From an uncultured Lachnospiraceae bacterium (GTDB taxonomy: Bacteria; Bacillota; Clostridia; Lachnospirales; Lachnospiraceae), in NCBI GenBank assembly GCA_947627645.1, contig CANQWV010000003.1, positions 1-50,167 on the forward strand: DNA of 50,167 bases. The letters are read 5' to 3'. The notes below the pieces were generated by a model, which had not been told where the DNA came from, ran no database searches, and worked only from the letters and a program-made list of their open reading frames with translations. The position numbers were made by a program, and so were the translations under genes. Positions 7,987-35,968 of this stretch are shown here, in pieces. The first letter of the stretch is position 1. Every line of letters starts with the position of its first letter.

Positions 7987-8639
7987 CGGTTTCATTGAAA
8001 AGGAAAGAGAAATTTGAAAACTACATAGGATCCCTGAAGTTTTCCCTTTACTGCATCACTCATCCGTTTGACGGTTTCTGGGATCTGACCCACGAAAAGC
8101 GGGGGAGCATCGCGGCGGCGAACACGATCCTCATTCTGACGCTGCTGGCGCGCATCCTCAAGCTCCAGTTCACCAGCTTTCTCTTCATCAGGGTGTACTG
8201 GCCGGAGATCAACATTTTCCTGTACATCGCGAGCGTTGTGTTCCCGCTCGCCCTGTGGACCATCTGCAACTGGGGACTGACCACGCTGTTCGACGGCAAG
8301 GGAAGGCTCTCGCAGGTGTATATGGCGACCTGCTACGGGATGACGCCGTATCCGCTGATCCAGTTTCCGCTGATCATCTTCAGCCATTTCGTGACGGTGG
8401 ACGAGGCAGAGTTCTATACGGTCTTAAGCGCGATCTCCCTCGTCTGGGCGGCGGCGCTGATCCTGGTTGCCATGTCGCAGATCCATGAGTACAAGATGAG
8501 CCAGACGATCTTGGCCGTCATCGCGACCGGTTTCGGAATGCTTGTGATGATCTTCATCCTCCTGCTGTTCTTCAGTATGATCAGCCAGGGCGTGGCATAC
8601 TTTATCTCGATCGGCAAGGAGATTTTGTTCCGAATATGA
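7983..8639 (+). CDS. Yip1-family integral membrane protein
   Basis: 218 residues, with about five hydrophobic helices in the Yip1 pattern and a basic soluble N-terminus. The start overlaps the stop of the NHL gene in an ATGA, indicating coupled translation. Bacterial Yip1 proteins have no established biochemical role; this one recurs with NHL, DUF5696 and CUT1 permease genes in Clostridia and Paenibacillus, from memory of such loci. I infer a membrane partner for the neighbouring NHL protein. Confidence 0.7.
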   Translation: MTVSLKRKEKFENYIGSLKFSLYCITHPFDGFWDLTHEKRGSIAAANTILILTLLARILKLQFTSFLFIRVYWPEINIFLYIASVVFPLALWTICNWGLTTLFDGKGRLSQVYMATCYGMTPYPLIQFPLIIFSHFVTVDEAEFYTVLSAISLVWAAALILVAMSQIHEYKMSQTILAVIATGFGMLVMIFILLLFFSMISQGVAYFISIGKEILFRI

Positions 8640-8688
8640 CGATCACCTTTGAGAGTCAAAGAGGCTGAATAAATAGGAGATACAGAAT

Positions 8689-11265
8689 ATGAAGTCTTCG
8701 ATGGGAAAGATAATCAAAAAAATGATAGGGCCGGTCATTCTTCTGGCGCTTGTTCTCGCAGGCTTTCTTTTCATGAAATACTACAAGCCGGCGGAAGATG
8801 AGCCGCAGGTGATCGAGACGAAGACCTACTCAGGCGACGTCAAGACGGCTGTCCTGGAGAACGACGATCTTCTCTTTGAACTGGATCCGGACACCACGCA
8901 GTTCACCGTCACGGATAAGAAGAACGACAAGGTATGGTACTCCAACCCGCCGGACGCAGACAAGGATCCGCTGGCGCTCAAGCTGGACAAATCTCAGCTG
9001 AAGTCCACACTGTTGCTCACCTACAGCACAACGAACGGCGTAGACACCCTTTTCAACAATTTCGACTATAGCATTGACGCGGGCTCCTACGAGATCGAGC
9101 AGGGCGAGGATTATGTGAAGGTCTATTACTCGATCGGCAAGTTCGAGGAGAAATTCGTGATCCCGACATCCCTGTCCCTGGAGCGGATGGATGAGCTGAC
9201 CGAAAAGATGGACAAGAGCAAGGCGAAAAAGGTGCGGGGCTACTATAAGAAATACGACATCGACAATCTCGGCAAGAAGGACAACAAGGAAGAGCTTCTT
9301 GCGCAGTACCCTTCTCTGGCAGATGCGCCTCTGTATGTCCTGAGAGATTCGGCGAGCGATAACGTAAAGCGCATGATCGCCGAGAATTTCGCGGAGGCGG
9401 GTTATACCTACGAGGATTACCTGGCGGACTCGGGCGAGTCAGAGGAGGGCGAAGCCTCCGAGCTGCCCGTGTTCAATGTAAACGTCATCTACCGTCTGGA
9501 CGGCAACAAGCTGACGGTCGAGGTGCCGATGGAGGAAATTGAGTATCGGGAGAACTATCCGATCTACTACCTGACCGTGCTTCCCTACTTCGGAGCGGGC
9601 GGAACGGAGGACGAGGGCTATCTGCTGGTGCCCGAGGGCGGCGGCGCGCTCATCAATTTCAACAACGGAAAGGTGGCGCAGAACAGCTACTACGCGAACC
9701 TGTACGGCTGGGACTACGCGCAGTACAGAGAAGCGGTCGTGCATGAGACGAACACCTATTTCAATGCGTTTGGAATCGCCAACAACGGCTCCTCCTTCCT
9801 GTGTGTGCTGGAGGACGGCGCTCCCTACGCGGGCATCAACGCCGACATCAGCGGAAAGACGAACAGCTACAACTCCGTATCGGCGCAGTACACCATGCTT
9901 CACCGGGAAGTGTACGAGATGGGCGACCGCTATGAGAGCAAGATCTATATGTACGAGGACGCGCTTCCGAAGGAGCCGCTCGTGCTGAGCTATTATTTCC
10001 TGGAGTCGGACAGCTACGCGGATATGGCGAACGCCTACCGCGGCTATCTGCAGAACGAGTATGGAGAGCTTTTCACGGAGAAGGTAGAGGACGGCGAGAC
10101 GCAGATTCCTACGGTGGTCGAGATCGTCGGCGCTGTGGACAAGGTGAAGCAGATCGCGGGCATCCCGGTGTCGAGGCCGCTGGCGCTCACCACCTTTGAC
10201 GAGGCAAAGGATATCATCGGAGATCTCCTGCAGGACGGCATCGGAAATATGAGCGTGAAGCTCTCCGGCTGGTTCAACGGCGGCGTGCAGCAGAAGATCC
10301 TCACGAAGGCGAAGGTGCTCTCGGAGCTGGGCGGAAAGAGCGATCTGAAAGAGCTTACGGCGTACGCGAAAGAGAACGGCGTGGATCTGTATCTGAACGG
10401 CATCACGAATTATGCGTATGACAGCAATATCCTGGACGGCTTCCTCACGTTCACGCAGGCGGCGCGCTTCGCGAGCAAGAAGGTGGCGGAGATCCATCCG
10501 TACAATACGGTGACCTACAACGCGAGGGAAGGGCAGGAGCCGCACTATCTGCTCAAGGCTTCGCTGATCTCGAAAATGGTCGACAATCTTGTAAATGCGG
10601 CGGACAAATATGGGGCGAATGTTTCCTTCGAGGACGTCGGCGTGGATCTGAGCTCGGACTTCAACAAGAAGACGCCGGTTTCGCGGCAGAGCGAGCTGAA
10701 CGCGCAGGTAGAGCAGATGCAGGCAATCCGCGACGGCGGAAAGAAGATCATGATCAATATGGGCAACGACTATGCGGTGGCCTACAGCGATATCGTGACG
10801 AACATGAACCTGCGCGGCTCGGATTATACCATACTGGATACTTACGTTCCCGTCTATCAGATGGCGCTCCACGGCTATGTGGATTATACCGGAGAGCCGC
10901 TGAACCTGACGCAGAACGAAGAAGAGGAGCTGCTTCTGTCGGCCGAGTACGGCGCGGGACTTGCGTTCACGCTGATGGACGAATCCGCGTTTACCCTGCA
11001 GAACACGCTCTATACGGAATATTTCGGGGCGGAGTATGAGACCTGGCACGACCGGATGCTGGAGATCTACGAGCGCTACAACAGCGAGCTCGGCCACACC
11101 TTCACCCAGAGGATGACGGGCCATGAGAAGCTTTCGGAGACGTTCTCCTGCACGGAATATGCGGACGGCACGAAGGTGTATGTGAACTATGGATACGACT
11201 CGGTGAAGACACCGGAGGGCAAGACGCTTGCGGCGAGGGATTATCTGGTACAGAAAGGATCTTGA
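8689..11265 (+). CDS. Large membrane-anchored extracytoplasmic protein, DUF5696-like
   Basis: 858 residues of unknown function. An N-terminal hydrophobic helix (about residues 10-26) anchors a long extracytoplasmic region. The first half is beta-rich. The second half, from about residue 490, has alternating beta strands and helices with glycosidase-like acidic and aromatic residues (for example SFEDVGVDLSSDF), resembling a TIM barrel. The order and sequence character match what I know as DUF5696 proteins found beside sugar ABC transporters. A clear ribosome site (AGGAGA) precedes the ATG at 8689. It could be a glycan-processing or glycan-binding subunit; no catalytic residues can be assigned from sequence alone. 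Confidence 0.65.
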   Translation: MKSSMGKIIKKMIGPVILLALVLAGFLFMKYYKPAEDEPQVIETKTYSGDVKTAVLENDDLLFELDPDTTQFTVTDKKNDKVWYSNPPDADKDPLALKLDKSQLKSTLLLTYSTTNGVDTLFNNFDYSIDAGSYEIEQGEDYVKVYYSIGKFEEKFVIPTSLSLERMDELTEKMDKSKAKKVRGYYKKYDIDNLGKKDNKEELLAQYPSLADAPLYVLRDSASDNVKRMIAENFAEAGYTYEDYLADSGESEEGEASELPVFNVNVIYRLDGNKLTVEVPMEEIEYRENYPIYYLTVLPYFGAGGTEDEGYLLVPEGGGALINFNNGKVAQNSYYANLYGWDYAQYREAVVHETNTYFNAFGIANNGSSFLCVLEDGAPYAGINADISGKTNSYNSVSAQYTMLHREVYEMGDRYESKIYMYEDALPKEPLVLSYYFLESDSYADMANAYRGYLQNEYGELFTEKVEDGETQIPTVVEIVGAVDKVKQIAGIPVSRPLALTTFDEAKDIIGDLLQDGIGNMSVKLSGWFNGGVQQKILTKAKVLSELGGKSDLKELTAYAKENGVDLYLNGITNYAYDSNILDGFLTFTQAARFASKKVAEIHPYNTVTYNAREGQEPHYLLKASLISKMVDNLVNAADKYGANVSFEDVGVDLSSDFNKKTPVSRQSELNAQVEQMQAIRDGGKKIMINMGNDYAVAYSDIVTNMNLRGSDYTILDTYVPVYQMALHGYVDYTGEPLNLTQNEEEELLLSAEYGAGLAFTLMDESAFTLQNTLYTEYFGAEYETWHDRMLEIYERYNSELGHTFTQRMTGHEKLSETFSCTEYADGTKVYVNYGYDSVKTPEGKTLAARDYLVQKGS

Positions 11266-26092: not shown

Positions 26093-27079
26093 ATGAACGA
26101 CAGAGCTTTGAAGGTACTGGAACAATACGATCTGGAGATCACGGGTACCAGGCGGGGCAGAGGCTCTTACATCTGCGAGACAACGCAGGGACTGCGGATT
26201 CTGAGCGATTACACGGGATCGGAGAACAAAGCGTTGTTTCAGAACTGCGTGATGGAAAAAATTCGCAGGGGCGGATATGAAAAGGTAGACGTCATCATCC
26301 CGAACCGCGAGGGCGCTCTGATCTCCCGGGACTGGGAGGATAATAAATATGTCGTCAAGGAGTGGTACACGGGGCGCGAGTGCGACACGGCGAGCGAGAG
26401 CGAGATTCTCTCGGCTGTGAGCAATCTGGCAAAGCTGCACAGGCTGATGCGTCTGGATGCCGCTTCGGAATTTCACCAGAGCTTTACCGCGCAGGAACCG
26501 CTTGCGGAGATCCGGGCGCAGAACGCGGAGCTGAAGAAGGTGCGCTCTTTTATAAGGAAAAAGAACACAAAATGCGAGTTTGAGCGGCTGTTCCTGAACG
26601 ATTACGCAAGATATTTCGAGCAGGCGCAGCAGGCGGAGCGGGAGCTTGCCGGCATGGAGTCAAGGACGAAAGCTCTGCTCGAAAATAACCGGGGCAGCGT
26701 GTGTCACGGCGACTATAATCATCACCATATCCTGATGACAGGCTGCGGCGTCGCGACGACGAATTTTGAGTGCTGCCGTTTCGACCTGCAGATCAACGAT
26801 CTCTACCGCTTCATGCGCAAGATTCTCGAGAAGCACAACTGGGATGTGAAGCTGGGGATGCGTATGCTCGATTACTATTCGCAGGTGCGTACGCTTTCGG
26901 CGGACGAGCGCAGGCTTCTCTATGTGAAGATGCTGTACCCGGAAAAATTCCGCAAGCTTGCGAACTATTATTACGGCAGCAACAAGGCCTGGATCTCCGG
27001 GCGCTTCCTCGACAAGCTGGAAAACCTGAACCGACAGGAGGAAATGCGGAATAATTTTGTAAAAATGCTGGAAAGATAG
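26093..27079 (+). CDS. CotS-family spore coat kinase-like protein
   Basis: 328 residues of the aminoglycoside-phosphotransferase-like fold, cytoplasmic (mother cell, on the spore surface in relatives). The catalytic loop is HGDYNHHHIL at about residue 205, followed by the metal-binding region NFECCRFDLQINDLYRFMRK, as in CotS, CotI and YutH. The Asp that normally follows the second motif (DFD/DWE type) is replaced by FECCRFD, as in many CotS proteins. B. subtilis CotS proteins are coat components made under sigma-E/sigma-K control; an upstream sigma-E-like promoter agrees. It is the last GC-rich gene before the AT-rich island. Confidence 0.8.
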   Translation: MNDRALKVLEQYDLEITGTRRGRGSYICETTQGLRILSDYTGSENKALFQNCVMEKIRRGGYEKVDVIIPNREGALISRDWEDNKYVVKEWYTGRECDTASESEILSAVSNLAKLHRLMRLDAASEFHQSFTAQEPLAEIRAQNAELKKVRSFIRKKNTKCEFERLFLNDYARYFEQAQQAERELAGMESRTKALLENNRGSVCHGDYNHHHILMTGCGVATTNFECCRFDLQINDLYRFMRKILEKHNWDVKLGMRMLDYYSQVRTLSADERRLLYVKMLYPEKFRKLANYYYGSNKAWISGRFLDKLENLNRQEEMRNNFVKMLER

Positions 27080-27194
27080 TTTCACTCTTCCTAGCTTTAT
27101 GCGTAAACTCGAGATCTTTTAAAATTTGAGAATAGTAATTTACGGTACCTTTATGATAAATTAAAATAGCAGTTTAGTTGTAATACATTGAGAA

Positions 27195-27719
27195 GTGAGC
27201 ATGATTAGCCATGCAGAAGCCATACGGCCGCATCGGCGAGTTTCCGGGCTGATTGCTAAGACTAATGAGAAGTATGAGGCTTTGCTGAGTGTTAAGAGAG
27301 ACGAAGTTGCTGAAATCGTCCGGCAGGGAATGCAGGATGTCCATCAGCTTGCCAGTGAAGCTCGCGATGCGCGCGACCTGCTTTGTCAGGCGGATGATTT
27401 CTTTGCAGAGAAACGCGATGCGATCTAGTTGGAGAAATCCTTGATCGATCTTGATGCAATGATTACGCGGGTACTGACATACAAGGATAATATCTGCCGC
27501 AGGATGGAGATGAGGATTTCTGATGAAAACCATCCTGTTACGCCTGTGGAAGACGGTCAGCCTGCAGTAAAGCCCAAGAAGATTACGACGGTTCGTCGTT
27601 ATGACCTCTGTTCCGTGAAGCGTTTGCAGTCGCGAGAGGATGTTGATAAATATGTCGAGAGCATCAAGGAGAAGCTGATACAGACACTTGCGGACTGTGA
27701 TGGGATTCAGATCAGTTAA
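27195..27719 (+). pseudogene. brxC: BREX brxC remnant (3' end), interrupted by TAG
   Basis: A single frame runs from 27195 to 27719 broken by one TAG at 27426-27428. The joined product is mostly helical (NEKYEALLSVKRDEVAEIVR, then LLCQADDFFAEKRDAI, stop, LEKSLIDLDAMITRVLTYKD) and ends VKRLQSREDVDKYVESIKEK then LIQTLADCDGIQIS. This looks like the extreme C-terminus of BrxC/PglY, the large BREX P-loop ATPase of about 1200 residues, whose last segment has an 'EEDVDxYlexlkexL' helix and a short final strand. The Walker domain and about 85% of the gene are missing, and a TGA lies just upstream in frame. Its position ahead of a pglX remnant supports the reading. It was identified from memory of the family, not by alignment. 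Confidence 0.55.
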
Positions 27720-27800
27720 GCTCATTATGCTGAAAAGCTGAAAACATTATAAGCATAGACTATACGAATGAACATTGCACTCAGATTTTAAAGAGAGAAA

Positions 27801-27843
27801 TTGTCCCAAAATGCTTGACATTTGTCCCACCCGTATTTATAAT
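27801..27843 (+). promoter_or_regulatory. Consensus sigma-A promoter overlapped by a 21-bp direct repeat
   Basis: -35 TTGACA (27815-27820), 17-bp spacer, -10 TATAAT (27838-27843): a perfect match to consensus. TTGTCCCA occurs at 27801-27808 and 27822-27829, 21 bp apart, flanking the -35 box and entering the spacer, where a bound protein would block polymerase. It drives the IetAS-like pair. Confidence 0.85.
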
Positions 27844-27878
27844 CAAAATAGGAAAAACATAATATGGGGGACGAGACT

Positions 27879-28925
27879 ATGAAGAAGCAAAACGTTATTA
27901 ATCTTGTGAAATATCATGTAGAACAGAATAATGCCGCTTTTGTTTCGGAAGTGGCAAAAATAGCCAGAGAATTTGATGCCAACGGTGACTATGAGGTAGC
28001 GCAATATTTGATGGATCTGGTATCAAATGCAAACGTTTATGTTCCGCAGGCGAACTATCGCAATCTTCAGTTTCTGGAGAAACTGGATTATTCATCGAAC
28101 CCACTATTACTTCCAAACATCATTGAAGAGGATGTTATAGGGATTGTGCGGTCAATCAAGAATAAAACAGGCATGTCTAAATTTCTCTTCTTTGGGATGC
28201 CGGGTACGGGCAAGACAGAATCCGCCTATCAAATTGCCCGCTTGCTTGAAAGAGATATTCTTTCGGTGCATTTGGAGGAATTGATCGACAGCAGACTGGG
28301 AGAAACATCAAAGAATGTGGCCAGACTGTTCGACGAGATCAATCATCTGCGCTATGACAAGGTTATCGTTATATTTGATGAGTTGGATGCCTTGGTTCTG
28401 AATAGAAACAGCGCAAATGATCTCCGCGAGATGAGCAGGGTAACATCCACTTTCCTGAGAGAATTGGATACTTTGAGCAATCAGATTGTCCTGATTGCCA
28501 CGACAAATATGATTGAGAGCTTTGACAAGGCATTGTTAAGAAGATTCGACGCGGTTGTTTCCTTTGACAAATACTCCAAAGAGGATCTTATTGAAATCTC
28601 GGATGCTCTGCTTACTTCCTGTATAAAGAAAGCGGCGAATTCCCGCCAGGATCTGAGGCTGTTTCATAAAATACTAAATAAAGCATCGGACATTCCATGC
28701 CCCGGAGATATGAAGCAGATTATCAAAACATCCATTGCTTTTAGCGACGAAACCAGTGAATATGATTATTTGAGAAAGATTTATCTCGCATTAAACGGCA
28801 ATCCGAAGAAAGTAGATATTCAGGAACTTTCAGAGCAGGGATTTACCACGAGAGAGATTGAGATACTGGCGCGGGTTCCCAAGAGCAGTGTATCGCGCAG
28901 GCTTAAAGGAGGGGCTGTCAGATGA
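27879..28925 (+). CDS. ietA: AAA ATPase of an IetAS-like defence/addiction pair
   Basis: 348 residues. The start at 27879 is preceded by GGGGGA with good spacing; an in-frame ATG at 27864 lies within the leader. An N-terminal helical region leads to an AAA+ domain: Walker A GMPGTGKT (residues 106-113), Walker B VIVIFDELDAL, sensor 1 IATTN and arginine finger LLRRFD. The C-terminus carries a helix-turn-helix-like segment (GFTTREIEILARVPKSSVSR). The next gene, a subtilisin-type protease, overlaps it by 4 nt. AAA ATPase plus subtilase is the IetAS architecture, first described as a plasmid stability system in Agrobacterium and later listed among anti-phage systems. By analogy this protein should restrain or activate the protease, and its C-terminal motif could let it repress its own promoter; both are inference. 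Confidence 0.8.
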   Translation: MKKQNVINLVKYHVEQNNAAFVSEVAKIAREFDANGDYEVAQYLMDLVSNANVYVPQANYRNLQFLEKLDYSSNPLLLPNIIEEDVIGIVRSIKNKTGMSKFLFFGMPGTGKTESAYQIARLLERDILSVHLEELIDSRLGETSKNVARLFDEINHLRYDKVIVIFDELDALVLNRNSANDLREMSRVTSTFLRELDTLSNQIVLIATTNMIESFDKALLRRFDAVVSFDKYSKEDLIEISDALLTSCIKKAANSRQDLRLFHKILNKASDIPCPGDMKQIIKTSIAFSDETSEYDYLRKIYLALNGNPKKVDIQELSEQGFTTREIEILARVPKSSVSRRLKGGAVR

Positions 28926-31186
28926 ATCATTTATTAGAGATAAAACTCCCATACAATCATAGGAATCGATCAGACTCGACTTTTGTTGCAAACTTGAAAG
29001 CGGATGGTGAAGCAACGGTTGAAAAGATTCAACAGCTACAGGAAAATTTAAGAGCAATAGTCAGATATTATGAGTCTGTGACGCAATATCTGGAAGGTTA
29101 TCTGATTGATGTAAACTATAATGACATCATTGCAAAGACAAAAAGAATAAGAGAATTGCTCAAACCGGCCGGGAAACAGACAAATGACATAGTAGTAGGA
29201 GCTCGTTTCTCGGATGCGCCGGAGGGACAGGAAAACCACATCATCACTTATTATGTGGATAGGAAAACCATCGACGGCACGCTTGAGAAGTTGGAAGAGA
29301 CAAAACGATTTCTGAGGGAGAGACTGGGCGGTAGGGCAATACCGGGAAATTTTAATGAAACAGAGAAAAAAAAAGATTTTTTAGATTACACAGGATATAT
29401 TTTGCCTAAAAGCGGTATCCGCAATATGATCGTCGACTGCTCTGTGGTGGAATCCATGTCTGTCCCGGATGTAACTGCGGACTCAAAAAGAGACTCCTTT
29501 TTGGTCACCTTTTTCCAGACAGAAATTACACTATCTGAAATGTTGGAGAAACTTGGCATAGATCGTTATCAGTTTCCCTATGTATTTTATGGGAGAGACA
29601 CAATTTCAGTAAGCTGGGATTTGTATCAGGTCCTGCAGGAGAGAGTTCCCTACATGATTTCAATGATCTCTTCAGATCTGTCGAAATTGACATGGGAGAC
29701 ATTTGATAAATCAGAGCAGGAGCATGAACGGGACATTCCCAAGCCGTCGAACGAGCCGACGATAGGCGTTATTGACAATCTGTTCGATGAAGGGGTTTAT
29801 TTTTCGGAGTGGGTCGAGAATACAGACTATCTGGATGAATTTGAGCCCATCGGGGGAAAAGATGTTTCGCGCGATCACGGTACGGAGGTGACGTCTATCA
29901 TTGTGGATGGACCCAGTCTGAATCCATGGCTTGACGATGGCTGCGGCAGGTTTAAGGTACGGCATTTCGGTGTGTCTGTAGACAGAATATCAGTTCCGCG
30001 TTTCGTGAATAAGATAAAAAAAATAGTGAATGACAATCCGGATATTCATGTGTGGAACTTATCACTGGGAACAGAGGATGAAGTGTCAAAAAACTTTATC
30101 TCATACGACGGCTCTGTGTTGGACGAGCTGCAGTCAAGTAAAAACATCATTTTTGTTGTATCAGGGACAAATGACAACCGCAGTGTGAAAAATGATATGC
30201 TTAGGGTCGGTTCTCCTGCGGATTCTCTGAATGCAGTGGTGGTCAATTCGGTAAAACGCAATAACCTGCCTGCCTCTTACACTAGAAAAGGAACGATTTT
30301 ATCCTTTTTTAATAAGCCGGATGTGTCCTATTATGGGGGAGACTACGAAGAAGGCGAGAGGATACAGGCGTGTTCTTCGAGAGGTATAGAAAAAGTATAT
30401 GGCACGTCGTTTGCTGCGCCTTGGATCGCCAGAAAGCTGTCCTTTCTGATTGATATTATGGGATTCTCCAGAGAAGTGGCAAAGGCGCTGCTTATAGATT
30501 CTGCAGCCGGCTGGGATTTTAAAACGTCAACATATAAGATTCAGGATCAGGTCGGATATGGCATTGTCCCGATTAAAATATCGGATATTCTGGAATCGAG
30601 GAACAACGAGATAAGATTTGTTTCGTATGGCACAGTAAGCTCTTATACTACTTCGAATTATACGATACCGGTTCCACGGGATTCCGACAACAAATATCCC
30701 TTTATTGCACGGGCAACCCTGTGCTATTTCCCACAGTGCTCCAGGGCGCAGGGAGTGGATTATACGTCAAGGGAATTATCACTGCGCTTCGGGCGTGTGG
30801 ATGAAGATGGGAAAATTAAGGATATTAATGAAAATGTCCAGGATGAAGAGGGACATGCTGTGGACGAACGCAAATCGCGCAGGGAGTTCAGAAAGTGGGA
30901 GAATACAAAATTTATATCCAAAGTCTTAAAGAAAAACCAAGCTCTAAAATCATATGACGAACGGTTGTGGGGAATAGACATAACCTCGAAAGAACGGCTG
31001 AGCAGTTTCATGACTTCAAACTTAAATTTCGGGGTGGTCGTTACGCTTCGCGAGATCAGAGACGTCAACAGAATACAGGACTTTATCATGGCATGTACAC
31101 TGAGAGGTTGGATTGTTAATGAGATAGAGATTGAGAACAGACTGGCTCTTTATAACAAGAATCAGGAAGAGATAAAGTTCGACTAA
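28922..31186 (+). CDS. ietS: Subtilisin-like S8 protease of an IetAS-like pair
   Basis: 754 residues, no signal peptide, so intracellular, which is unusual for a large subtilase and typical of IetS. A roughly 270-residue N-terminal extension precedes the S8 domain. The triad is complete: Asp285 in GVIDNLFDEG, His319 in DHGTEVTSI, Ser496 in GTSFAAPW, with the oxyanion Asn in VSGTNDN. A C-terminal beta-rich domain of about 190 residues follows. The ATG overlaps the ATPase stop (ATGA). The intact triad and frame argue that the pair is functional although the surrounding BREX genes are dead. The probable role is abortive killing or antiviral proteolysis triggered by infection. Confidence 0.82.
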   Translation: MNHLLEIKLPYNHRNRSDSTFVANLKADGEATVEKIQQLQENLRAIVRYYESVTQYLEGYLIDVNYNDIIAKTKRIRELLKPAGKQTNDIVVGARFSDAPEGQENHIITYYVDRKTIDGTLEKLEETKRFLRERLGGRAIPGNFNETEKKKDFLDYTGYILPKSGIRNMIVDCSVVESMSVPDVTADSKRDSFLVTFFQTEITLSEMLEKLGIDRYQFPYVFYGRDTISVSWDLYQVLQERVPYMISMISSDLSKLTWETFDKSEQEHERDIPKPSNEPTIGVIDNLFDEGVYFSEWVENTDYLDEFEPIGGKDVSRDHGTEVTSIIVDGPSLNPWLDDGCGRFKVRHFGVSVDRISVPRFVNKIKKIVNDNPDIHVWNLSLGTEDEVSKNFISYDGSVLDELQSSKNIIFVVSGTNDNRSVKNDMLRVGSPADSLNAVVVNSVKRNNLPASYTRKGTILSFFNKPDVSYYGGDYEEGERIQACSSRGIEKVYGTSFAAPWIARKLSFLIDIMGFSREVAKALLIDSAAGWDFKTSTYKIQDQVGYGIVPIKISDILESRNNEIRFVSYGTVSSYTTSNYTIPVPRDSDNKYPFIARATLCYFPQCSRAQGVDYTSRELSLRFGRVDEDGKIKDINENVQDEEGHAVDERKSRREFRKWENTKFISKVLKKNQALKSYDERLWGIDITSKERLSSFMTSNLNFGVVVTLREIRDVNRIQDFIMACTLRGWIVNEIEIENRLALYNKNQEEIKFD

Positions 31187-31220
31187 ACGGGATAGCAGTT
31201 GGTACAAAGGAGCAGAGAGA

Positions 31221-32367
31221 ATGAATAAGCGCGATTCAACGTTTCGCAATGTGGGCGCGGAAAGAGCTGATTGCTCAGGTTTCACAGAGGGCTTATCAGT
31301 ATGATATCACCGAGGAGGACTGCAGTGATTATAATGCGGTAAGAAGCTGTATAGCGTTATCAAAACATGATTGGGACTCTTTTGAAATCTCATGGGATTT
31401 CAAATGTCATCCCTTAGTTCATAAAGCTCTTAATGTTATGGAGGCTTTTAAACAATGGCAAAACGAATGTGATATCCGATATAGTCAGCTTAAAGCAAAC
31501 GAAGAAGAACTCAACCGTATTTTCATCAATATATATGGGTTTCAGAACGAGGTGACGTTGGAGGTAGAGGACAAGGATGTAACAATATATCATGCTAATG
31601 CTGGACGAGATATTCGGTCGTCGATTTCCTATGCTGTTGGCTGCATACTTGGGCGTTATTCACACTATACAGAAGGATTCCTTTATACTGGTGGACTATG
31701 GGATTATGGGACTATTGTTGAAAGAATAAGTGATTCGGCAAGACAGAATGGATATGAATTATGGAATCCTTCTGCATTGTTTTTACCCGATATAGATAAC
31801 ATAATCCCTATATGTGATGATGATTACTTTGAGGATGACATTACAGGGCGTTTTGTAAAGTGGGTGGAAGTTGTTTACGGTAAAGAAACATTAGAGGAAA
31901 ATTTGAAATTCATTGCAGATGCTCTTGGAGGTAAGGGTTCTTCGCGTGAGGTTATCCGTAGTTATTTTCTCAATGATTTCTATGCCGACCATCTTAAAAT
32001 ATATCAGAAACGACCGATTTACTGGCTCTTTGACAATGGTAAGAAGAACGGATTCAAGGCATTGATTTATATGCACCGTTATCAAAGCGACTTGCTTGCG
32101 CGGATGCGCACAGATTATGTTCACGAGCAACAGGAGCGTTACCGCACCCAGCTAAAGCATATTGGTGATGCAATGGTCTCCGCTTCTGCATCGGAGCGTG
32201 TAAAATTAGCGAAGCAACAGAAGAAGTTTCAGGATCAGGCGCTTGAATTACAGAGGTACGAGGAAAAGATACACCATCTGGCAGACCAGAATATTAAGAT
32301 TGACCTTGACGAAGGAGTAAAACATAATTATGCTTTGTTTGAGGAAGTATTGGCAAAAATTAAATAG
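31221..32367 (+). pseudogene. pglX: BREX pglX remnant: frameshifted start, catalytic middle deleted
   Basis: The ATG at 31221 begins MNK, but one extra base near codon 4 shifts the frame; the next frame continues AIQRFAMWARKELIAQVSQR and AYQYDITEED, the usual PglX N-terminus. After about 40 residues the sequence jumps to what is normally the last third of PglX (SCIALSKHDWDSFEISWDF, AVGCILGRYS, NIIPICDDDYFEDDITGRFV, LNDFYADHLKIYQKRPIYWL, HRYQSDLLARMRTDYVH, LADQNIKIDLDEGVKHNY). The SAM-binding and NPPY catalytic motifs of this roughly 1200-residue adenine methyltransferase are gone, so it cannot methylate DNA. The junction lies near AVRS. Downstream of the frameshift the 372-residue frame is open and might be translated from an internal ATG at 31249, perhaps as a target-recognition fragment. 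Confidence 0.85.
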
Positions 32368-32383
32368 TAGGGAGGCGTAAAGC

Positions 32384-33490
32384 GTGTCTATCAAATCAAT
32401 TAGTGTTACTAACGTGATGGTATTTCAGCGCCAGCTGCGGAAAAACAACGGTGATCCAAAGATTGGGGAATTGGTTTCAGGCGACAGATTGTGTGATGCA
32501 TTTAAGCTGAACTTTTCTGATGGAATCAATGTCATTATTGGAGAAAATGGAATTGGAAAGACAACGCTGCTTAAGATGATTTATGCAGCGACACAGTGGT
32601 CGATTGAAAAGACAGATGTTGGAAAGACAGATAAATTTATAAAGTTTTTTTCCAACAATTTAAAAGACAGTGATATGCTTAAAAATCCTGACTATAACGA
32701 AGATTACTGTGCTTTTGAGGTGTCTGATGGGGAACATACTTTTACCTATAGCCTCTCTCACAAAGGTTTCTTCAATTTGGATGATTGGCTGGGCTTGAAT
32801 ATTCAATCTGTCTTTATTCCCACAACTGAAATGTTGTCGCATTCTAAAGGATTTTTGGCGTTGAATCAAAAATATGGTAATTTGCCGTTTGACGGGACAC
32901 AGGTGGATATCATTGTTAATGCATCTTTACCAGAAGTAAGAGAAGTATCGCTAAGCTTAAAATTAATCCTTGAAAAACTTAGCACTGCAATAGATGGCGA
33001 GGTTATACAGGAGGATGATGTCTTCTACGTGCTGAAAAAAGATGGACGAAAGGTAGATTTTTCATTGGAAGCTGAGGGCTTTCGTAAGTTGGGACTTTTG
33101 TGGAAGCTTATTCGAAATGGACTTTTGGAAGAAAGAACGATTCTGTTGTGGGATGAGCCAGAAGCAAACTTGAATCCGGAACTATTCCCTTTGGTTGCAG
33201 AAATTCTGTTGGAGTTGCAAAAAAATGGTGTTCAAGTTTTTCTTGCTACACATAATTATAACTTTGCAAAATATTTGGAAATATTTCGTTCCGATAAAGA
33301 GCAGGTTCAGTTTCATAACCTGTATAAAGGGACTTCTGAGCTTCCTGAAAGCCTAAAGAAATCATTTTCAGACCATAATCAGAGAGAAGATGAGGTATAC
33401 AGTACCTCTGCCTACACATTGGAAGATCTTGGCCCAAATCATATCATGTCGGCAGATATGGATTTGATGGATAGAGTATATGAGCTGTGA
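32384..33490 (+). CDS. RecF/OLD-like AAA ATPase of a two-gene module
   Basis: 368 residues, GTG start behind GGAGG. Walker A is GENGIGKT at residues 53-60 (preceded by GINVII). The late Walker B with signature-like run is ILLWDEPEANLNPEL, and the H-loop is LATHNYNF. The domain order matches the small AAA_21-type ABC ATPases that accompany nucleases or toxins in defence loci (compare PtuA, AriA, GajA). No coiled-coil arm of SMC length is present. It is followed 12 nt later by a small nuclease-like gene and sits between the pglX remnant and a pglZ-like stub, as accessory genes do in BREX islands. The frame is intact, so it is likely functional. Confidence 0.8.
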   Translation: MSIKSISVTNVMVFQRQLRKNNGDPKIGELVSGDRLCDAFKLNFSDGINVIIGENGIGKTTLLKMIYAATQWSIEKTDVGKTDKFIKFFSNNLKDSDMLKNPDYNEDYCAFEVSDGEHTFTYSLSHKGFFNLDDWLGLNIQSVFIPTTEMLSHSKGFLALNQKYGNLPFDGTQVDIIVNASLPEVREVSLSLKLILEKLSTAIDGEVIQEDDVFYVLKKDGRKVDFSLEAEGFRKLGLLWKLIRNGLLEERTILLWDEPEANLNPELFPLVAEILLELQKNGVQVFLATHNYNFAKYLEIFRSDKEQVQFHNLYKGTSELPESLKKSFSDHNQREDEVYSTSAYTLEDLGPNHIMSADMDLMDRVYEL

Positions 33491-33502
33491 GGTGTTGTCG
33501 TG

Positions 33503-34012
33503 ATGAACATATTTACAGAGGAAAATGGTGTGTATTGTATTAACTGTTCTAAAGCCGTCTGGGCGACAAATGGAATTCACGCGGCATATCACAATGCTGG
33601 CTTGAGGCTTTCAGATGTTGATTTTGTCATTGAAAATGAGGATATATTGTTGCTAATGGAGTATAAAAACGCTAATGTACCAAATGCTGTTCAACCGACG
33701 AGTTTTCACCCAGAAGACGAAGATAAAATTAATAAAGTTTCTAAGAAATATTATGATTCTCTCCACTATCTGGCTCTTTTAGGAAAGAATAAACCTAAGT
33801 GTTTCGTGTATGTTGTGGAGAGCGTTTATGGCGATGCTGTTTTGCGCCGTAGAGTACGTGCACGTTTGAAGGCTAAATTGCCGTTCACTTTACAAGAGCA
33901 CTTATCAAGCGGCACTGCCCTTATTGAAGCTGTGGATGTGTTATCCATAGAAGAATGGAACAATGATCCAGTCTACGGAAACTATCCGATTATGCCTGTT
34001 AGCACTACATAG
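33503..34012 (+). CDS. Small PD-(D/E)xK nuclease-like partner of the ATPase
   Basis: 169 residues, cytoplasmic. A GTG three bases upstream is an alternative start; GAGGTG fits the ATG at 33503. The region around residues 36-58 reads SDVDFVIENEDILLLMEYKN: an Asp (38 or 40) about 13 residues before Glu53-Tyr-Lys55 on a hydrophobic strand, the arrangement of a PD-(D/E)xK active site. An Asn/His-rich helix and basic segment (RRRVRARLKAKL) follow. I do not recognise a named family. Being next to an ATPase of the PtuA/AriA type, it could be the effector of an ATPase-gated nuclease system. Confidence 0.55.
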   Translation: MNIFTEENGVYCINCSKAVWATNGIHAAYHNAGLRLSDVDFVIENEDILLLMEYKNANVPNAVQPTSFHPEDEDKINKVSKKYYDSLHYLALLGKNKPKCFVYVVESVYGDAVLRRRVRARLKAKLPFTLQEHLSSGTALIEAVDVLSIEEWNNDPVYGNYPIMPVSTT

Positions 34013-34094
34013 TATAGTATGATTTTATAAAGCAGCTATGCGTTACATGATGTACTTGTAAAGCGGAACACTAGATAAAGTTTCAGCAAACAGG

Positions 34095-34175
34095 ATGGAT
34101 GCCAATAGAGTAGCACAAAACTTAAATGAAATGTTTGCAAAGCGAATAAATATTAGAAAGATAGTTCCTTTTTAG
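34095..34175 (+). pseudogene. pglZ: Possible pglZ N-terminal stub
   Basis: A 26-codon frame, MDANRVAQNLNEMFAKRINI then RKIVPF and TAG. The 'xxLNExF...RxIV' pattern is how BREX PglZ phosphatases begin, just before a conserved FWYD. Its place after pglX and the accessory pair matches BREX gene order. It is short, so the assignment is tentative. Confidence 0.35.
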
Positions 34176-34231: not shown

Positions 34232-35968
34232 ATGGAAGACTACAGAAAAGCATATGAAGAGTGGCTGACGAACCCGCACTTCGACGAGGCGACAAGGGCG
34301 GAGCTGAAAGCAATCGAGTCGGATGAGAATGAGATCCGCGAGCGCTTCTACACGGAGCTCGAGTTCGGCACGGCGGGTCTGCGCGGCATCATCGGCGCGG
34401 GCACGAACCGCATGAACAAGTACGTGGTGCAGAAGGCGACGCAGGGGCTGGCGAACTACATCCTGAAGCAGGATAAGCCAAACAAGAGCGTGGCGATCGC
34501 CTACGATTCCCGCAGGATGTCGCCGGAGTTCGCGGACTTCGCGGCGGAGACGCTGGCGGCCAACGGCATCAAGGCTTATGTGTTTGAGTCGCTGCGCCCG
34601 ACGCCGGAGCTGTCGTTCGCGGTGCGGGAGCTTGGCTGCATCGCGGGCATCAACATCACGGCGAGCCACAACCCTCCGGAGTACAACGGCTACAAGGTCT
34701 ACTGGGAGGACGGCGCGCAGATCACTCCGCCGCACGACACCGGGATTATGGCGGAGGTGAAGGCGATCACGGACTACACCGCGGCGAAGACGATGAGCAG
34801 GGAGGATGCGGTCAAGGCAGGCCTTTACGAGGTGATCGGGGAGAAGATTGACGACGCGTTCATCGCGCAGCTCAAGAGCCGTGTGCTCCACCCGGAGACG
34901 ATCGCGCAGGAGAGCAAAAATCTCAAGATCGTCTACACGCCGCTGCACGGCACGGGCAACCTTCCGGTGCGCCGCGTGCTGAAGGAGCTTGGCTTCGAGC
35001 ACGTGTACGTGGTGCCGGAGCAGGAGAAGCCGGACGGCGAGTTCCCGACCGTCAGCTATCCGAACCCGGAGGCGGAGGAGGCGTTCACGCTTGGGCTGAA
35101 GCTCGCGAAGGAGATCGACGCGGACCTTGTGCTCGCGACCGATCCGGACGCGGACAGGCTCGGCGTGCGCGTGAAGGATGCGAAGACCGGCGAATACCAC
35201 ACGCTGACCGGCAATATGTCGGGCTGCTTGCTGGCGGACTATGAGATCGGCCAGACGAAGGCGGTGAAGGGCCTGCCGGACGACGGCGTCCTGATCAAGA
35301 CGATCGTGACGACGAACATGGCGGACGCAATCGCGAAGTATTATGGGACAGGCCTCATTGAGGTGCTGACCGGCTTCAAATACATCGGGCAGCAGATCCT
35401 CGGCTTTGAGAAGAGCGGCAAGGGCACATACCTCTTTGGCTTCGAGGAGAGCTACGGCTGCCTGATCGGTACGCACGCGCGCGACAAGGACGCGATCGTC
35501 GCCTCGATGGCGCTCGCGGAGGCTGCCGCGTTCTACAAGGCGCAGGGCAAGACGCTCTGGGACGCGATGGTCGAGCTGTATGAGCGCTACGGCTATTACA
35601 AGGACGACATCAAGACGATCACGCTCAAGGGTATCGAAGGGCTTCAGAAGATCCAGGAGATCCTCGAGACGCTGCGGAAGAACGCGCCGAAGGAGATCGG
35701 CGGGTATCAGGTGACGGCAGTGCGCGACTACAAGGCGGATACGATCACAGATCTTGCGACGGGAGCGGTGAAGCCGACCGGCCTTCCGGCCTCCAACGTG
35801 CTCTATTACGAGCTGACCGACGACGCGTGGCTTTGCGTGCGCCCGTCCGGCACGGAGCCGAAGGTGAAGTTCTACTACGGGATCAAGGGCACATCGCTTG
35901 CGGACGCGGATGAGAAGTCGGCGGCGCTCGGAGAACAGGTGCTCGCGATGATCAACGAGATGCTGTAA
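34232..35968 (+). CDS. Phosphoglucomutase / phosphomannomutase family enzyme
   Basis: Interconverts glucose-1-phosphate and glucose-6-phosphate for glycogen, cell-wall sugar and glycolytic use. 578 residues, the normal length of the bacterial PgcA type. The phosphoserine is Ser145 in TASHNPPEYNGYK, the metal loop is ATDPDADRLGV, the sugar-binding loop is FGFEESYGC and the phosphate-binding loop is RPSGTEPKVKFY. Strong AGGAGG sites precede the ATG. GC content jumps back to the genomic level here, so this is the first core gene right of the island. Confidence 0.93.
   Translation: MEDYRKAYEEWLTNPHFDEATRAELKAIESDENEIRERFYTELEFGTAGLRGIIGAGTNRMNKYVVQKATQGLANYILKQDKPNKSVAIAYDSRRMSPEFADFAAETLAANGIKAYVFESLRPTPELSFAVRELGCIAGINITASHNPPEYNGYKVYWEDGAQITPPHDTGIMAEVKAITDYTAAKTMSREDAVKAGLYEVIGEKIDDAFIAQLKSRVLHPETIAQESKNLKIVYTPLHGTGNLPVRRVLKELGFEHVYVVPEQEKPDGEFPTVSYPNPEAEEAFTLGLKLAKEIDADLVLATDPDADRLGVRVKDAKTGEYHTLTGNMSGCLLADYEIGQTKAVKGLPDDGVLIKTIVTTNMADAIAKYYGTGLIEVLTGFKYIGQQILGFEKSGKGTYLFGFEESYGCLIGTHARDKDAIVASMALAEAAAFYKAQGKTLWDAMVELYERYGYYKDDIKTITLKGIEGLQKIQEILETLRKNAPKEIGGYQVTAVRDYKADTITDLATGAVKPTGLPASNVLYYELTDDAWLCVRPSGTEPKVKFYYGIKGTSLADADEKSAALGEQVLAMINEML

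Follow-up and report, generated by a model that had tools for sequence, protein, structure and literature searches.

The window analysed here is a stretch of 50,167 nucleotides that makes up one whole contig (~50 kb) of the draft genome of an uncultured Lachnospiraceae bacterium. It contains an AT-rich island in which a type 1 BREX (bacteriophage exclusion) operon has almost certainly died as a carrier while two of its passengers, the two-gene modules IetAS and HEC-02, remain intact. Three BREX genes persist as broken pieces, and their order and orientation, brxC-pglX-pglZ, are those of type 1 BREX; four whole cargo genes fill the two gaps between them. Such a decayed carrier with open passengers had been proposed in a first-pass annotation made from the sequence alone, and the proposal holds. 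Of the six-gene type 1 core (brxA, brxB, brxC, pglX, pglZ and brxL), only fragments of three are present, and the locus is a BREX remnant rather than a BREX system.

Similarity to BrxC, PglX and PglZ was found by profile or alignment for all three pieces. For brxC, the piece after the TAG matches the last part of the PADLOC profile (E 4e-8, positions 1093-1189 of 1190) and the NCBIfam model at 2.8e-4, where 19 bits against a 400-bit cut-off is the low score expected of a fragment. The piece before the TAG gave no BrxC match in the library profile searches. At the DNA level, the remnant aligns with the intact brxC of the same-genus genome G007 (locus L174) from 27208, equivalent to nucleotide 3079 of 3591 in that gene, to the stop codon. 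The first-pass annotation had described a brxC 3' end with an in-frame TAG starting at 27195. The profile match, the G007 alignment and the TAG at 27426-27428 sustain the identification, while the start moves to 27208 and the beginning of the reading frame used earlier is out of frame, with a one-base deletion near 27248.

The pglX gene had been said to carry a frameshift and a catalytic deletion, and alignment to the intact G007 operon (L174) fixes both: two bases are lost after codon 3 and ~2352 bp are lost in frame. Residues 1-37 of the remnant correspond to the PglX N-terminus and residues 38-380 to its last third, the methyltransferase domain having been deleted between residues 37 and 38. 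The remnant matches the PADLOC profile with an E of 4e-135 and the NCBIfam BREX-1 methyltransferase model with 4e-121 (406 bits, cut-off 500), the main profile match covering positions 841-1170 of 1174. It is open from ATG 31249 to 32367 (372 codons), and its reading frame is not that of the natural start codon.

The pglZ stub, suggested earlier for 34095-34175, survives in shortened form. The 26-residue open reading frame (ORF) matched nothing in the library profiles, and the possibility that it was spurious because of the repeat at the island edge was considered and overturned, for ~16 codons, by the PglZ starts of relatives. Among 1511 six-frame segments of the window, the stub ranks first against a profile of 31 PglZ N-termini (E 1.8e-4, runner-up 0.12). 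The likely start of the L202 PglZ, MDANRITQDLKEKFA, and the window stub, MDANRVAQNLNEMFA, are identical at 10 of 15 positions, and the PglZ of L205, like that of L202 a protein of the same BREX lineage, matches the stub at 9 of its first 15 residues. The likeness is limited to about the first 16 codons; the remainder of the ORF overlaps the chromosomal junction. Genes brxA, brxB and brxL are absent from the locus, where only short gaps remain between the flanks. No further PglX copy or PglZ domain was found in the rest of the 88% complete draft; the search for brxA, brxB, brxC and brxL was confined to the window.

The modules in the two gaps are intact, as the first-pass annotation had it: profiles identify IetA/IetS and HEC-02A/B, and catalytic residues are present, with a PD-(D/E)XK-like fold and D...ExK motif as a candidate assignment for HEC-02B. 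IetA matches its PADLOC profile (2e-41) over residues 9-348 of 353, contains Walker A and B motifs and an Arg finger, and is encoded next to ietS; ATG 27879 is the ietA start common to homologues. The IetS match (1e-57) covers residues 261-741 of 754, and alignment of the protein to its nearest relatives extends along the full 754 residues. IetS scores 99.8 bits with Pfam Peptidase_S8, and its Asp-His-Ser triad is invariant in 20 sequences. The NCBIfam equivalog scores, 111.7 for IetA and 133.5 for IetS, lie below the cut-offs of 510 and 900 bits. HEC-02A (1e-98, residues 1-367 of 368) adjoins HEC-02B (8e-69, residues 1-168 of 170), both full-length PADLOC matches. A search of solved structures returned nothing for IetS at 0.001 and a single, chance-level match for HEC-02B, and the viral contigs contained one IetS relative and no HEC-02B relative. 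Two broader tallies were set aside: IetA matches in 380 of 391 genomes are mostly other AAA proteins (of the listed matches, just 10 from genomes other than the window's own span almost all of IetA), and the 253 of 299 obtained for HEC-02A likewise counts other ABC ATPases.

Table 1. Features of the island and its edges in the window.
Feature	Coordinates	Strand	Remarks
Direct repeat, left copy	27063..27081	+	19 bp, imperfect (16/19); island edge, at stop codon of upstream host gene
Left flank, non-BREX	27080..27207	.	Between host gene and BrxC remnant
brxC 3' remnant	27208..27719	+	One-base deletion near 27248; TAG 27426-27428; profiles and DNA alignment
ietA promoter and putative operator	27802..27843	+	TGTCCC 27802-27807 and 27823-27828; TTGACA 27815-27820; TATAAT 27838-27843
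ietA, AAA ATPase	27864..28925	+	Antitoxin in studied homologues; C-terminal helix-turn-helix (HTH)-like motif
ietS, S8 (subtilisin-like) serine protease	28922..31186	+	Toxin in studied homologues; Asp/His/Ser triad intact
pglX 5' stub	31222..31335	+	Two-base deletion after codon 3
pglX 3' remnant	31336..32367	+	Last 343 codons; fused in frame to stub through ~2352-bp deletion
HEC-02A, ABC-type (OLD/PtuA-like) ATPase	32384..33490	+	Starts 16 bp past pglX remnant stop
HEC-02B, predicted small PD-(D/E)XK-like nuclease	33500..34012	+	PADLOC profile
pglZ 5' stub	34095..34142	+	~16 codons; N-terminal profile and relatives' PglZ starts
Direct repeat, right copy	34148..34166	+	At chromosomal junction

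Living BREX loci hold the same modules in the same gaps, which bears out a further suggestion of the first-pass annotation. The G007 operon (L174, identical with L204) reads brxA-brxB-brxC-IetA-IetS-pglX, and an Eisenbergiella draft genome (L203) has brxB-brxC-IetA-IetS-pglX-AlbA-pglZ-brxL. IetA of the window is 84-86% identical, and IetS 76-79%, to the proteins of these loci. HEC-02 lies between pglX and pglZ in L176/L272 (brxA-brxB-brxC-pglX-HEC-02A-HEC-02B-pglZ-brxL), with 76% identity in HEC-02A, and a more distant HEC-02 occupies this gap in L217 (39% over residues 140-368). Each gap thus holds its module in two species; no living locus with both IetAS and HEC-02 was found. In G007, a cyclic oligonucleotide-based antiphage signalling system (CBASS) set of SAVED-HNH effector, cyclase and E2 follows pglX, at L174 641-3407, in the same living operon that holds IetAS, and the contig ends beyond it in transposase-like sequence (by eye).

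The cargo slots of BREX are position-specific. Counting same-strand ORFs of at least 100 residues where both neighbouring core genes were present in order, we found the brxC-pglX gap occupied in 26 of 82 cases, pglX-pglZ in 62 of 78 and pglZ-brxL in 8 of 68, against 0 of 73 for brxA-brxB and 0 of 75 for brxB-brxC. Without repeated pglX, the sets comprised 77 of 80 loci from a scan of named genomes and 47 of 58 others; the named set was chosen on similarity in PglX, with 80 of 253 relatives retained, and the counts therefore speak mainly for this branch of BREX. Ancestral carriage of IetAS and HEC-02 in the slots where they now lie is very likely.

Two more genomes of the genus, G359 and G003, also show intact passengers in a dead carrier. 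In G359 (L177), intact HEC-02A/B stands with a PglX 3' fragment and a BrxL fragment, pglZ is missing, and the contig ends upstream, leaving brxA-C beyond view. In G003 (L182), intact PtuA/PtuB (Septu) lies between fragments of PglX and PglZ, with other genes on either side; the living locus L230 has Septu in this gap too, with protein identities of 95.4% and 94.4% (DNA 93% over 2.6 kb) and ratios of nonsynonymous to synonymous substitution rates (dN/dS) of 0.105 and 0.153. The G003 remnant, at L182 462-5580, is situated between response regulator- and histidine kinase-like genes (by eye). Outside the genus, Murimonas intestini (L276) has full-length PDC-M14A/B among fragments of brxA, pglX, pglZ and brxL, and its pglX remnant is not open to its end. 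Bacterium 1XD21-70 (L216) retains full-length pglZ and AlbA; upstream of cargo and pglZ, at L216 9770-11017, ~70 first codons of brxA are fused in frame to the last 345 codons of pglX (415 residues), a second in-frame deletion that leaves the 3' end of pglX open. These four are closely studied cases and no census; L182, L216 and L276 were taken from a list of 24 broken pglX ORFs from 20 loci (4 at locus ends), the rest of which is uncounted. Among them, cargo outlives the BREX core often, not always.

Could the passengers simply be survivors by luck, of a decay so young that the deletions have missed them and they are next to go? The last 343 codons of the PglX remnant are still open and the BrxC remnant has only two lesions, which indicates that the decay is not old, and two other dead loci hold damaged cargo. 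However, when three deletions of the observed sizes were placed at random on an 18-kb model locus, all four cargo genes were spared in 0.25% of 200,000 trials, a simulation that was post hoc and borrowed the locus layout from relatives. The pattern also recurs in G359 and G003. Moreover, the PglX remnant differs in constraint from IetA, IetS and HEC-02A. At near-invariant positions, defined as at least 95% conserved in the other sequences, the PglX remnant has changes at 13 of 149, exceeding every one of 60 intact PglX (the worst has 9), which shows that PglX is relaxed. IetA (2 of 88, a count reached by 3 of 19 relatives), IetS (1 of 152, reached by 12 of 19) and HEC-02A (4 of 167, reached by 4 of 6) are not relaxed; the BrxC end has none changed out of 8 positions only. 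We consider neutral survivorship unlikely.

That the PglX remnant is itself a functional protein, such as an orphan specificity domain, is more doubtful still. It has 372 open codons after an in-frame deletion, L216 made an independent in-frame brxA'-'pglX fusion, and all three disabling lesions of the window fall in the other ~224 remnant codons (chance 0.06). Against this stand the excess of changes at near-invariant positions, the natural start codon that is out of frame and the closed remnant of L276. A stretch that is open but unconserved is better explained as a spacer whose translation protects HEC-02 from polar effects.

It is very improbable that the modules were never BREX cargo and landed later, side by side, in an island already holding BREX fragments. 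The modules are mobile, since IetAS (L175) and HEC-02 (L064) also occur upstream of brxA instead, and fetched stretches devoid of BREX genes also contain IetAS (L189, L193) or HEC-02 (L190, L192). Their order and gaps in the window nevertheless agree with living same-genus operons, the pglX 3' end and HEC-02A align to G001 as a single 1.7-kb block (70% at the DNA level), and the IetAS block adjoins the BrxC end in G007. An assembly artefact of the draft (2.73 Mb, 234 contigs, 88% complete) can be dismissed with near certainty, as the cargo frames are intact and the island is embedded in a 50-kb contig, flanked left and right by host genes whose order is conserved.

IetAS also appears to have control elements of its own. 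The ietA promoter is the sole perfect (12/12) promoter match in the scanned region, in a scan that was at chance level overall (20 sites vs 17.5). The two TGTCCC boxes around it, 21 bp apart, are the window's only exact pair at that spacing, and of 29 distinct regions upstream of ietA, the window's included, 28 have pairs 20-21 bp apart around the promoter. In a first set they were present in 19 of 20 distinct regions, again including the window (16 exact; 0.0 expected from 200 rounds of shuffling with base composition kept), and in a second set in all 10 of 10 further nearly whole ietA genes, one of which repeats a genome already counted. Examples among the 27 other distinct loci are L175, L189, L203, L204 and L284-L293; the lone exception is the viral contig L282, where no pair was found upstream of ietA. 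Hits of ietA starting after residue 12 and regions with fewer than 100 upstream bases were excluded from these counts, and from the first set also hits of at most 40% identity.

The C-terminus of IetA in the listed proteins carries a T-x-R-(E/D) stretch followed by KS-x-x-x-R, in which S and R are invariant (20/20). The copies in the window and L282 have HTH families as their best Pfam matches, at sub-threshold E values of 0.07-0.12, and a low-confidence model of the window protein (predicted local distance difference test score, pLDDT, 50) places two helices at the motif. The TGTCCC pair is a putative operator, probably conserved across the IetAS family, and autoregulation, with IetA repressing its own promoter, seems somewhat more plausible than the contrary. 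The paired boxes and the conserved HTH-like motif make IetAS look like a cassette that regulates itself and does not depend on the BREX promoter. HEC-02 has no promoter gap of its own, and because HEC-02A starts 16 bp after the stop of the pglX remnant we infer that it is transcribed by read-through from ietA.

Taken together, decay of BREX with IetAS and HEC-02 outliving their carrier is the likely overall explanation. An ancestral type 1 operon of the G007/L203 kind would have stood between the host genes 26093-27079 and 34232-35968, with IetAS between brxC and pglX and HEC-02 between pglX and pglZ. Deletions have removed most of brxC, the central part of pglX and almost the whole of pglZ, and three small lesions disrupt the leftovers; judging from relatives, brxA, brxB and brxL would once have been present and lost in the same deletions. 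IetAS would persist as a BREX-independent cassette under its own consensus promoter, with the antitoxin IetA repressing its own transcription via the paired TGTCCC boxes, and loss of ietA alone would release the protease toxin IetS. HEC-02 would be transcribed from ietA through the open pglX remnant. The passengers may be kept by addiction, in the case of IetAS, and/or by remaining phage defence.

Addiction is favoured for IetAS because its homologues are proven toxin-antitoxin pairs. In passages of the respective papers, SgiAT, similar to IetAS of pTiC58, is a functional toxin-antitoxin pair (PMC5006074), and deletion of only the antitoxin of the mycoplasma pair A132-T133 is lethal, while the double deletion is not (PMC8562856). 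By analogy, IetAS in the window may be such a pair; that addiction is the main reason for its retention is a candidate we rate slightly short of evenly balanced. The addiction reading covers IetAS only, not HEC-02.

Several points weigh against the picture of retained, self-regulated passengers. The HTH call for IetA is based on conservation, sub-threshold Pfam matches and the low-confidence model (pLDDT 50). HEC-02B differs at 4 of 43 near-invariant positions, equal to the worst of its 7 relatives (1/7). The dN/dS of the PglX remnant relative to G007 (0.057) is as low as that of IetA (0.067) and IetS (0.097); because synonymous sites between window and relative are near or past saturation, the ratio does not separate cargo from remnant. 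Cargo modules decay as well: G007 has a broken HEC-02A, AlbA of L276 lacks ~80 N-terminal residues, and the PDC-S02 cargo of L216 is truncated. As for addiction, it is weakened by the joint deletability of the mycoplasma pair (PMC8562856, in the passage cited) and by SgiAT, which in the relevant passage of PMC5006074 shows no post-segregational killing from its own promoter in the plasmid test. Finally, part of PMC12839542 argues that nested nucleases assist BREX, and on that view nothing would hold them in place once BREX is lost. The broken HEC-02A of G007 (L188, contig C16, ~8539-8955) consists of residues 1-125, with 87% identity to HEC-02A of the window, and no BREX gene lies in the 20 kb fetched around it.

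The segment 27080-34175 is AT-rich, with 39-44% G+C in the seven 1-kb bins from 27001 to 34000 against 48-63% in the remaining bins, and the host genes on its two sides adjoin each other in same-genus relatives. Both are present in 19 of 29 fetched same-genus loci (L003-L031), 18 at a spacing of at most 325 bp and G007 at 793 bp; in the other 10 the second gene falls outside the fetched stretch, and some stretches end with the contig. Host gene order is conserved on either side. The 19-bp edge repeat may be an integration scar or chance microhomology. A BREX leader was one reading of the left flank, set aside because similar sequence comes after this host gene in G366 (80% over 128 bp, by search) and, by eye, in G009, for which the search listed no match. 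No match to it was listed in the BREX contig of G007, the one BREX locus compared. Noncoding sequence 3' of the host gene also resembles 27080-27207 in L178 (1-408, by search) and L003 (1-235, by eye); in both a terminator-like hairpin follows and the contig stops there, which hints at a second island at the same site.

IetAS shares with SgiAT and A132-T133 the adjoining AAA ATPase and S8 protease genes (PMC5006074 and PMC8562856, in part), and its proteins of 353 and 754 residues are close in size to those of the mycoplasma pair (353 and 757, as given in PMC8562856). It differs in being nested in a BREX remnant and in having the conserved putative operator and C-terminal HTH-like motif. These two are new here, with no counterpart in the passages on IetAS homologues in PMC5006074 and PMC8562856. 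Extra defence genes within type 1 BREX operons are described in portions of several papers: BrxU lies between brxC and pglX in pEFER (PMC8565348), and StySA BREX has an ATPase-DUF4435 pair, said to have been acquired after BREX, and a pglZ allele polar on brxL (PMC9009780); the Hma system is the subject of PMC8565338. According to part of PMC12839542, nested nucleases occur in BREX of at least 4363 taxa and are read as auxiliary or backup effectors. As the same source reports OLD-type ABC ATPases paired with HNH, PD-(D/E)XK or PIN nucleases in BREX loci, the presence of an HEC-02-like pair within BREX is probably nothing new as such. HEC-02 here resembles the PADLOC candidate system in having both components full-length and differs in lying inside living and dead BREX loci. 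Unlike the nested genes in these published portions, those of the window remain whole in a locus whose BREX core is destroyed. Among the matches listed in a limited literature search (titles and abstract openings), we found no report of a dead BREX with surviving cargo and none of an IetA operator, of which an earlier description is possible.

Nested systems can thus persist in a defence island after its main system is gone, which separates two usually lumped ideas. Because the pattern recurs in one genus and has living counterparts, the question whether nested modules help BREX or are independent tenants can be put to the test; survival of cargo without BREX argues for tenants, where PMC12839542, in the part cited, proposes helpers. 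The putative ietA operator offers a direct handle on the control of this toxin-antitoxin defence family. A more speculative reading, less likely than not, is that BREX acts as a carrier with fixed slots around pglX, that IetAS as a self-regulating addiction cassette with a conserved IetA operator may let passengers outlive it, and that the pglX 3' end may serve as a translated spacer keeping the second passenger expressed from the promoter of the first. If this is true, dead BREX loci would be a regular source of free-standing defence modules.

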